62,623 nt of DNA from NCBI GenBank assembly GCA_024399215.1, contig JAKSHT010000002.1, positions 1 to 62,623 of the forward strand. The letters are read 5' to 3'. Made by a program: the position numbers and the translations under genes. The notes below the pieces were generated by a model. The model was given only the letters and a program-made list of their open reading frames with translations, searched no databases and was not told the DNA's origin. Within the stretch, counting starts at the first letter, position 1. Each line of letters begins with the position of its first letter. Source of the stretch: an archaeon. Lineage in GTDB: Archaea > Thermoplasmatota > Thermoplasmata > Methanomassiliicoccales > Methanomethylophilaceae. Shown here piece by piece: positions 1-18,721 of the stretch.

Positions 1-835
1 CAAACGCTATACGAAGCATTTGGGCATCTGCCCTTGAAAGAAGCATCTTGATGTTATCCTTGGTAGGCAATGCAATTGAAGTCGAGAGACCTACCGCCTC
101 TCTGAATGCCTTTGTGATAAGTGGTACAATTGTTTCATTCGTCGGGAAACATACTGCAACACCTAGCGCATGAGCGTTAGATGCAGCTGCTGCTAATGCA
201 TTAACGTAGTAATCATCCGGAATGTTTAGTACGTCTTTGGAATACACAATGCCATCTTCGTATACTGCTCTGAGATCGAGTCCTATAACCATCGGCAGAA
301 TTCCTAACTTAGGAAGCATTGCCGCGGTGTTTGCAGGAACAGGATGTCCGGCTTTCACTAGTGTCGTATCTTTTTTTATTACGATTTTTCCAGATTCTAT
401 CGAAGTGGGAAGTCCTAACTTTTGAAGTTCACCTATGACAGGTCCCGGCCCAAAGGGTGTAGGCCCTTGGGGAACGATAATGTCTATTGGTGCAATTTGA
501 CCAGCTTTCACAGGAGCAGCTGTCTTTGAAGATTCGAGCTGCCTGAAAAGTTTGAAAGGATTGAGATCTGTGACAATGATTGCGCATTGTCCATAAACTG
601 CAGGCTTTAATTTATCTAGTTCTGGCTTCTGTTTTTCAGCCTCGTTGAGTGCCAAGATCGCGAGGTTATTCCTGGTCATCCTTAATATCGCATGTTTTCT
701 AAGTCCGGCTCTCATAGACTGTATCTGTTGACCAGCAATTCCACCCATGCCAACGACTGCAACAATCGGCTTCGCGATTATGTCATCTACCAAACTTTTA
801 ACAAGATCTTTTTTCCAAGCTGCGATGTGCGTCAT
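1..835 (-). CDS. rpl10: Ribosomal protein L10 (P0), 3' end outside window
   Basis: Reading the minus strand from the ATG at 835 gives 278 codons without a stop, running off the window start. The product begins MTHIAAWKKDLVKSL and contains features typical of archaeal L10/P0: an MRAGLRKHAILRMTRNN segment that contacts 23S rRNA, and an IIVPQGPTPFGPGPVIGEL segment of the central insertion. It forms the base of the ribosomal stalk and binds L12 dimers through its C-terminus, which lies outside the window. It starts 11 bases after the rpl1 stop, with a G-rich stretch as ribosome binding site, so it is co-transcribed with rpl1. The open frame is not interrupted, so it is cut by the window, not broken. 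Confidence 0.96.
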   Translation of the reverse strand, partial: MTHIAAWKKDLVKSLVDDIIAKPIVAVVGMGGIAGQQIQSMRAGLRKHAILRMTRNNLAILALNEAEKQKPELDKLKPAVYGQCAIIVTDLNPFKLFRQLESSKTAAPVKAGQIAPIDIIVPQGPTPFGPGPVIGELQKLGLPTSIESGKIVIKKDTTLVKAGHPVPANTAAMLPKLGILPMVIGLDLRAVYEDGIVYSKDVLNIPDDYYVNALAAAASNAHALGVAVCFPTNETIVPLITKAFREAVGLSTSIALPTKDNIKMLLSRADAQMLRIAF

Positions 836-1485: not shown

Positions 1486-1499
1486 CTTAATTCCTCCTC

Positions 1500-1530
1500 G
1501 TAGTGCCTGCGAATCTTTAGATTCTCCTAC
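1500..1530 (-). promoter_or_regulatory. Leader hairpin before rpl1, candidate L1 autoregulatory site
   Basis: On the transcript the arms GUAG and CUAC form an outer stem. The inner arms GAAUC and GAUUC close a UAAA loop. The two stems are separated by an asymmetric internal loop, GA on the 5' side and GCAGGCA on the 3' side. The 3' outer arm ends directly before the GAGGAGG ribosome binding site. Two short helices joined by a lopsided internal loop is the architecture of L1 binding sites on 23S rRNA and on archaeal L1 mRNAs (established). That this one binds L1 is inference. Confidence 0.5.
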
Positions 1531-1554
1531 AAGCTGGCCACACAAAGGAGGGAT

Positions 1555-1568
1555 ACTATATAAATTCG
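1555..1568 (-). promoter_or_regulatory. TATA box for rpl1-rpl10
   Basis: The minus strand reads CGAATTTATATAGT, a strong archaeal box A. A start site about 25 bases downstream would fall near 1536, leaving a leader of about 50 bases that consists mostly of the hairpin at 1500-1530 and the ribosome binding site. Confidence 0.55.
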
Positions 1569-2260: not shown

Positions 2261-3127
2261 TTATTTCTCCTTTTCAATCAGTTTAACACTTTCACCAGTA
2301 ACAGTAACAGGGATCGGAACCATTGCTTCTATAAGTTCGACGGTAATTTCCTCTCTTTCCTTGTCAATCTTGAATACTCTAGCTTTCTCGCCCTTGAAAG
2401 GTCCATTGATTAGCTCAACAATGTCTCCCTCTGCGATACCGATAACCGGTGACAATGGTGTGAGGTAGTGCTCTATTTCGTTAACATCTGTTTCACCGTC
2501 TACGAAAGATCTTGCTTTTTTAATGCCTTTGGTTTTTTCACGCATTCGGTCTGTGTTCATCCCCTCGACAAAAACATATCCACTAAGACCTGCTGGGCAT
2601 AGAACGGAATATACATCGTGATGTTTGCATTCATCCTCTGTGAATGTAGTACTGTCTACGATGTAGGTATCTTCGCGACTTTCTTTTGATTCTTTCCTAA
2701 AAATGTTGTAGAGACTCTTTGCAACATCTTTTTCCTGACCAATTCTTGTTTTGAGGGCTACTATTGAAGGAGTGGCAACTGCAGAATAGGATATTTCTCG
2801 CATCCTTTCATTTGAAGAAATGATGAGATTTACTGTAACTTTATCATCATACCTAGCGCCTCTGGGACATGTGAGTTTAAGCGTAAATTTGGATTCATGT
2901 GTGATGAGTGGATGAAATTCTCCGGTTTGCTTTCCGGTATAATTATCCCAACCACTACCGTTGTCGGTTATTTTGACATCCCAACTCGGCGCATCCACGG
3001 GATCTGTTACGACGGAAACTTTAACATTTGAAATGGGCAGATCTTCACTGGCAGGGATGTCCCAGGAAAAGGATCCTCCTGCAGTGAGGAATATTGTAGC
3101 GGTATTTTCTGAGGTAGCAAGCGACAT
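2261..3127 (-). CDS. spt5: Transcription elongation factor Spt5 (NusG family) with extra N-terminal domain
   Basis: Residues about 121-215 form the NGN domain (SIVALKTRIGQEKDVAKSLY to GLSGYVFVEG) that binds the RNA polymerase clamp and Spt4. Residues about 227-285 form the KOW domain (GDIVELINGPFKGEKARV). Archaeal Spt5 is normally about 150 residues; this protein has 288 because of a 118-residue beta-rich N-terminal extension unrelated to NGN or KOW. The start is supported by AGGAG eight bases before the ATG, so the extension is translated. It lies between secE and rpl11, the classic archaeal and bacterial arrangement. Confidence 0.93.
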   Translation of the reverse strand: MSLATSENTATIFLTAGGSFSWDIPASEDLPISNVKVSVVTDPVDAPSWDVKITDNGSGWDNYTGKQTGEFHPLITHESKFTLKLTCPRGARYDDKVTVNLIISSNERMREISYSAVATPSIVALKTRIGQEKDVAKSLYNIFRKESKESREDTYIVDSTTFTEDECKHHDVYSVLCPAGLSGYVFVEGMNTDRMREKTKGIKKARSFVDGETDVNEIEHYLTPLSPVIGIAEGDIVELINGPFKGEKARVFKIDKEREEITVELIEAMVPIPVTVTGESVKLIEKEK

Positions 3128-16993: not shown

Positions 16994-18721
16994 TTACGCC
17001 CCTATATTCTTGAATTGATCGTCAAAGTCAGCATCAATCGCTACCAACTCGTTATCGATGGTCTCTTCATACTTGGATCTGATAAATCTTTGTCTTGCCG
17101 GGATACCGACTATTTTTTCAACTGTAGCACCTTCTGAAAGTGCTTTCTGCGCGAGATCCGAAAATTTCTTGATAAGCTTGAGCATCATGAACTGTCTTGG
17201 TATCGGACAATACGTGTCAACGGGATCGTACGCATTCTGCTGCAAGAAAATTTCACGAATCATTTTTGATACTTCTAGCGTGATCTTCTGACTGTCTGGA
17301 AGTGCATCAGATCCGACCAACTGAACAATTTCTTGAAGCTCCGATTCTTTTTGAAGAGTCTGCATAGCCCATTCTCTGAGTATAGGGAACCCCTCGCCAA
17401 CATTTTCTATATACCAATTTCTGAGCTGCTTGTCGTAGAGAGTATACGATGTTAACCAGTTAATAGCTGGGAAGTGTCTTCTCTCCCTTAACTTGGTATC
17501 AAGAGCCCAGAAAACACGAACGATACGGAGAGTGTTTTGTGATACGGGTTCCGAAATATCTCCACCTGGTGGAGAAACTGCACCGATGACTGAAATTGAT
17601 CCTTCGCTATCACAAAGAGTCTTTGCACGACAGGCACGTTCATAAAATTCAGAAAGTCTTCCCGCGAGATATGCAGGATAACCCTCTTCGCCTGGCATTT
17701 CCTCAAGTCTTGAAGAAATCTCTCTCATTGCTTCTGCCCATCGAGAGGTAGAATCAGCCATAAGCGCAACGTTGTATCCCATATCCCTAAAGTACTCTGC
17801 AATTGTCATCCCAGTGTAAACAGAGGCTTCTCTTGCCGCAACGGGCATATTAGATGTGTTCGCAATAAGAACCGTTCTATTCATTAAAGGGTTACCAGTT
17901 TTGGGATCTTCTAACGCAGGGAATTCTGTAAGAACTTCTGTCATCTCGTTTCCACGTTCGCCACATCCGATATAGACGACTATCTCCGCGTCAGACCACT
18001 TTGCAAGCTGTTGCTGAGTGACTGTTTTTCCGGTACCAAACCCGCCGGGAATTGCCGAAGCCCCACCCTTTGCAAGTGGGAACATCGTATCAAGAATCCT
18101 CATACCTGTTATGAGAGGTACATCTGGTTGATGTTTTTCCTTAACGGGCCTCGGAACACGAACCGGCCACTTTTGCATCATGGTTATCTTTTTACCTTCG
18201 ATGACTGCGATAGTCTCTTCAACTGTGAAACTGCCAGCTCTTATTTCTTCCACTTTCCCGTGTATATCCACCGGAACAAGAATCTTATGAAGCATTGTTC
18301 CTTCCATAACGGTACCGAGAATCTGCCCTGGAGCTACGACATCTCCAGATTTTACAATTGGATTAAATTCCCACTTTTTCTTTCTGTCCAATCCAGGGGC
18401 TGTGACCCCACGTAGTATAAAGTCCCCCATTTTCTCTCTAAGTGCTACTAAGGGTCTTTGAATGCCATCGTAGACAGAGTGTAGAAGCCCAGGACCAAGC
18501 TCAACTACAAGTGGGCGACTGGTATTTGTAACTGGTTCTCCAGGCTTGACACCAGATGTGTCCTCATAAACTTGAATAATTGATTTGTCACCAACAATTT
18601 TGATGACTTCTCCCATAAGCCGCTCTTTTCCAACATATACGACATCATACATTCGTGGAGAGATGCCGACAGCGGTGACGACCGGCCCAGCTACTCTATA
18701 AATCCTTCCTTCATTGCTCAT
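16994..18721 (-). CDS. atpA: A-type ATP synthase catalytic subunit A
   Basis: 575 residues. The Walker A loop is GGFGTGKT, and [20 protein letters not shown] follows the Walker B strand. The roughly 90-residue non-homologous bulge region (about 110-200) present in V/A-type but not F-type subunits is seen ([20 protein letters not shown]). No intein. It abuts atpF with no spacer. Confidence 0.98.

Follow-up and report, generated by a model that had tools for sequence, protein, structure and literature searches.

Autoregulation by ribosomal protein uL1 (L1) occurs in both bacteria and archaea, the L1 sites on mRNA resemble the L1 site on 23S rRNA, and archaeal L1 mRNAs can be regulated by bacterial L1, as described in PMC10931766. 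In E. coli K-12, the leader of rplK (the L11-L1 transcript) is the translational operator of L1; its hairpin, GGG-GA-GCCUC-UCA-GAGGC-GUUAUUA-CCC, starts 45 nt before the rplK start codon and, on our own reading, has a 3-bp base stem (GGG/CCC), with the Shine-Dalgarno (SD) sequence outside the base helix. Among archaea, the operator of Methanococcus vannielii L1 (MvaL1) is said to mimic 23S rRNA and to lie inside the gene, approximately 30 nt after the ATG, whereas in Archaeoglobus and halophiles the L1-L10 transcript reportedly has the site in its untranslated leader.

We compared these systems with the rpl1 locus in a 62,623-nt stretch of an archaeal genome of the phylum Thermoplasmatota (hereafter, the window, by whose positions all coordinates are given). 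The rpl1 gene (847-1485 on the minus strand, including the stop codon) was identified by its match to NF003244 (E = 5.1e-84, 281.1 bits against a cut-off of 203) and starts with TTG (1483-1485). Upstream on the same strand are L11 (1787-2257), separated from rpl1 by approximately 300 nt, Spt5, and SecE. The Spt5 frame (2261-3127, minus strand) encodes 288 aa, and its TIGR00405 match spans residues 169-288 only, with a long N-terminal part outside it. The reading frame downstream of rpl1 (1-835, minus strand) is cut by the window end and starts with MTHIAAWKKDL; from its position and start, we take it to be L10, presumably on the same transcript as rpl1. Among the best 80 of 183 L1 relatives, the closest named one belongs to an archaeal MAG from horse faeces (90% L1 identity), and the next-closest records are named Methanomassiliicoccales, Methanomethylophilaceae, or just Thermoplasmata or Euryarchaeota; the window thus probably belongs to the order Methanomassiliicoccales.

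A hairpin upstream of rpl1 was confirmed at 1497-1533 on the minus strand, counted from the base helix to the loop, by folding, by alignment, and by a match at 1491-1536 (52.7 bits) of a covariance model built from leader copies (R1). Read 5' to 3', it consists of the base helix 5' strand CUUGUAG (1527-1533), identified by the minimum free energy (MFE) fold and the covariation analysis and containing the core GUAG (1530-1527); GA (1525-1526), the 5' side of an internal loop; the upper stem 5' strand GAAUC (1520-1524); the terminal loop UAAA (1516-1519), which varies among relatives; the upper stem 3' strand GAUUC (1511-1515); GCAGGCA (1504-1510), the 3' side of the internal loop with the form G-N5-A; and the base helix 3' strand CUACGAG (1497-1503), containing the core CUAC (1503-1500). 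The SD sequence GAGGAGG occupies 1493-1499. Each of the elements in the original prediction (GUAG, GA, GAAUC, UAAA, GAUUC, GCAGGCA, CUAC, GAGGAGG, and TTG) was found exactly, on the minus strand. The hairpin had been described as ending directly before the SD sequence on a GUAG/CUAC lower stem; the lower stem is in fact longer, CUUGUAG/CUACGAG, and thus shares three bases with the 5' end of GAGGAGG.

The window hairpin (GUAG-GA-GAAUC-UAAA-GAUUC-GCAGGCA-CUAC) is an irregular stem-loop whose asymmetric internal loop is of the kind seen in L1 sites. It has the same topology within a 5' leader as the E. coli rplK operator, G-GA-G(5-bp stem)C-G-N5-A-C, and in both, GA stands opposite seven bases, the first being G and the last A, between G-C pairs. 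The two differ in that the E. coli hairpin stands before L11 and the window hairpin before L1, and in the length of the base stem and its relation to the SD sequence. A descriptor of this topology recovered the E. coli leader with a 3-bp lower stem, and the window was scanned at 4 bp; as it was written with the known sites in view, the descriptor shows how rare the pattern is and does not amount to an independent prediction. At 4 bp, it matched 40 Markov sequences at a mean of 0.225 per 62.6 kb on both strands, and the window contained two matches, the leader and 17531-17566. The latter was taken for chance.

The 23S rRNA of the source itself was not found in its incomplete assembly, and the rRNA of relatives was therefore used (39 of 61 genomes, 30 loci read). 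The L1 stalk of these rRNAs (helices 76-77), for example GGCGG-GA-GAC..GUC-ACCGAUGAAACA-CCGCC, likewise has G-GA-G..C on the 5' side, and the last base of its 3' loop is an A that precedes C. However, its 3' loop has 12 nt (5-7 in the leaders), its upper stem is long, and its lower stem is GC-rich. R1 gave no stalk match up to E = 10 in the 30 rRNA loci. A looser hand-made descriptor gave 47 matches in these loci, with the stalk recovered automatically in 21 and with 23 other matches; the stalk was recognized by eye in three more (L123, L137, and L138) and was not found in six. The leader may mimic the rRNA stalk, for which these comparisons are partial evidence. We also compared base changes in the leader and the stalk in the 29 of 56 genomes in which both were located by pattern (the other 27 were excluded). 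In five genomes, all from one family, A stands in both the leader and the stalk. G355, which does not repeat this co-change, has the rRNA change alone, and the comparison was not used as evidence.

The original prediction had likened the locus to Methanococcus-type archaea. The topology equal to that of the E. coli L1 site and the likeness to the stalk, whose 3' loop is longer, support this parallel, but the Methanococcus site, although in the same operon, reportedly lies within the gene and the window site lies in the leader. Archaeoglobus and the halophiles are the better comparison, because their L1 site is said to be in the leader, as here; they are other lineages and are likened by description only.

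The same comparison bears on the identity of the ligand. The operon appears to encode a second protein, L10, which together with L12 is known to repress its own mRNA in bacteria, and the frame after L1 reads as L10. L10(L12)4 regulates rplJL in Bacillus subtilis, according to PMC4538822. However, the rplK leader matches this hairpin and the L1 stalk is similar to it, and L10 sites are described as kink-turn sites in PMC10931766, which makes L10 a very unlikely ligand.

Conservation was examined around the nearest L1 loci (the best 80 of 183 relatives), of which 79 had readable upstream sequence. The hairpin stood before the L1 start in all 79; the extraction pattern required [GA]TAGG and CTAC, which cost no readable locus. 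After the removal of 10 duplicates, 87 distinct copies were aligned (A1), comprising the window, 75 named loci, and 11 unnamed loci; 12 more unnamed loci were kept out as repeats of named ones. The original prediction had singled out the internal loop as the part on whose conservation in relatives it depended, and the loop is conserved. GA is present on the 5' side in 87 of 87 copies. In the 85 copies split by the loop parser (all except L024 and L046), the 3' side has 7 nt in 71, 5 nt in 10, and 6 nt in 4 copies; its first base is G in 78 and A in 7, and its last base is A in 84.

The surroundings of the SD sequence and the start codon are also conserved. In 72 of 87 copies, the base helix reaches into the SD core, by one base in 66 and by two in 6. 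The TTG start of rpl1, part of the original prediction, is present and is kept in 51 of the 52 nearest loci (L001-L053 less L050), while the gene after L1, which reads as L10, has an ATG start in 50 of the 52 (not found in two). Both the SD overlap and the kept TTG would suit a conserved stem that controls initiation without L1, that is, a hairpin at the 5' end that tunes access to the SD sequence or shields the mRNA end. Such a stem needs no fixed unpaired bases, yet GA and, in the 3' loop, the first G/A and the last A hardly vary, and the E. coli L1 site has them too; moreover, R1 matches occur solely before L1 (see below). We consider this explanation unlikely. With L1 as the ligand, the pattern of the start codons fits a deliberately weak start, by which TTG might sharpen the control, as originally suggested.

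RNAalifold, applied to the 87 copies with no structure supplied, recovered both helices de novo. In A1, 89.1% of the cells pair in the named structure (shuffled mean of 82.9%), and the covariation score was 0.256, a value reached by none of 500 shuffles (mean of 0.141), which take no account of the relatedness among copies; slid controls scored at most 0.136. Two of five covariation measures lay within the shuffles, namely double-change pairs (115/500) and further pair types (37/500). An alignment fitted by the covariance model, which favours the structure by construction, gave 89.9% paired cells and a covariation score of 0.295 (0.147 shuffled) from 76 matches in 75 of 77 sources, including a weak second match in L106. 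The upper stem and the foot of the base helix carry compensated changes; at the latter, the pair linking the helix to the SD region covaries (UA in 48, CG in 21, AU in 7, GC in 3, UG in 3, and other in 5; n = 87). Thus, the covariation among related genomes that the original prediction proposed to look for was found in the upper stem and in the SD-joining pair, and the structure is kept with compensatory changes. GUAG/CUAC is identical in 86 of 87 copies; the core of the lower stem is therefore without covariation support, and its near-invariance points to a constraint beyond pairing. The E. coli leader and 23S rRNA carry other bases at the GUAG/CUAC position.

The folding energy contributed less. 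The MFE structure of the bare leader (1536-1486) was the described fold at -10.8 kcal/mol (z = -2.19), which was equalled by 6 of 200 shuffles. When 16 or 46 nt of coding sequence were appended, z was -1.16 and -0.89, respectively, and the range across three stretches longer than the bare leader was -0.89 to -1.35; in the MFE structure of the longest (1536-1440), the lower stem was not formed. Thermodynamics alone is thus weak, because the z values in longer contexts are unexceptional and the longest MFE structure is without the lower stem, and it is conservation, not energy, that supplies the excess over chance. A plus-strand fold at 1486-1575 (z = -3.03) was set aside, as rpl1 runs the opposite way.

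A TATA-box-like element, TTTATATA, is located at 1557-1564 on the minus strand and recurs in relatives. Of the 50 nearest loci (L001-L051 less L050), 47 have a TATA-like hexamer 31-38 nt ahead of the base that precedes GUAG, compared with a mean of 0.86 and a maximum of 4 of 50 in shuffled upstream sequences. The transcription start can be placed by the usual archaeal spacing between the TATA box and the start site. With the TATA-like element at 31-38 nt, the mRNA should begin at the hairpin, and a start at approximately 1533-1538, the foot of the hairpin, is predicted. Judged from this box, the hairpin should lie in the mRNA leader of the operon encoding L1. The near-fixed spacing would also suit a DNA operator, with the inverted repeat after the TATA box bound by a transcription repressor. 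An operator read as DNA is nevertheless extremely unlikely, since the letters of the stem change with compensation while the bases of the asymmetric loop stay fixed, and since, in DHVE2-type loci, the hairpin stands shortly after a stretch that was read by eye as the end of L11.

R1 was specific to this site. In the whole incomplete source genome, the second-best match, after that of the window copy, reached 15.1 bits (E = 0.38). Across 389 sampled genomes of the phylum, searched with strict filters and with only 16 first-look candidates scored per listed genome, R1 matched at E ≤ 0.01 in 85 genomes, exactly once in each. Eighty-four of the 85 matches end 1-22 nt before an L1 match on the same strand, and the remaining one (G010) stands before an L1 frame of which the contig end leaves 24 codons. 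To these we added L1 loci from 40 chosen genomes, 38 of them non-hits (G063 and G100 were hits); L1 was matched in 37, and 30 loci were inspected by eye. A recognizable hairpin was present in 14 (including the known hits L188 and L195) and absent from 16, L194 being doubtful. The leader is therefore widespread but not universal in the phylum. A relaxed descriptor run on the 16 loci lacking the hairpin revealed no convincing substitute site; its matches upstream of L1 in L181 look like chance.

In ten of these loci (L179-L181, L192, L196-L198, and L201-L203), L1 follows directly behind a frame read by eye as L11, with no leader hairpin, and in such lineages, the control appears to have been lost or moved. 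Two loci of one family (L174 and L175) have a TATA-like box approximately 30 nt before the ATG, no visible SD sequence, and no L1 site that we could see, a layout as for leaderless mRNA.

Our main reading, to which we assign a probability of about 0.88, is that the hairpin acts as the L1 feedback operator of the rpl1-rpl10 transcript and represses its translation. Transcription would begin at or just before the hairpin, and the leader of approximately 50 nt would fold into a short base helix, an asymmetric loop (GA opposite G-N5-A), and a second helix, copying the docking site of L1 on 23S rRNA. Should the supply of L1 exceed that of free rRNA, L1 would bind the internal loop and clamp the base helix. 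As the 3' strand of this helix runs into the SD sequence, bound L1 would block loading of the 30S subunit; translation of L1 would drop, and probably that of the genes downstream as well. New 23S rRNA would then draw L1 away, and translation would resume. In this scheme, we infer the role of L1 as the ligand, the occlusion of the SD sequence, the effect on downstream genes, and the role of TTG. As far as sequence can test it, the reading of the locus as L1 autoregulation in the original prediction is supported.

The principle, autoregulation by L1, is already known, and what may be new is the spread in the phylum, the SD-joined GUAG/CUAC helix, the held UUG, and the fact that the window copy matches no family of Rfam 15. 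Rfam at the gathering threshold reported five tRNAs in the window and nothing else, and a scan of 1400-1650 on both strands, which contains the window copy, gave no Rfam 15 match up to E = 10. The element thus seems to be uncatalogued. New archaeal leaders for S15, eL15, and L4 are described in PMC7247131. A term search of its main text returned no L1 leader and neither Methanococcus nor Thermoplasma. Our literature search yielded no paper on an L1 leader in Thermoplasmatota among the matches listed; subscription papers were mostly outside its scope, and absence is not proven. With slightly less than even confidence, we propose that the locus represents an L1 leader class that extends through much of the phylum (85 of 389 genomes), has no Rfam 15 match, and combines two devices, a near-invariant GUAG/CUAC helix running into the SD sequence, by which L1 and the ribosome would compete for the same bases, and a UUG start held across an order for weak initiation. 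On this proposal, the lower helix, with its A-U pairs, could make the mRNA a weaker site than the GC-rich rRNA and thereby set the threshold of the feedback.

How ribosomal proteins feed back on translation has been well mapped in bacteria; in archaea, coverage is thin. The leaders described here form a clean, alignable family of archaeal L1 leaders and are a candidate for an Rfam entry. They also provide a natural series (a leader with its own promoter, a leader behind L11, and no leader) in which the gain and loss of control can be followed. The RNA is short and suited to binding work, and the group that carries it includes host-associated methanogens.
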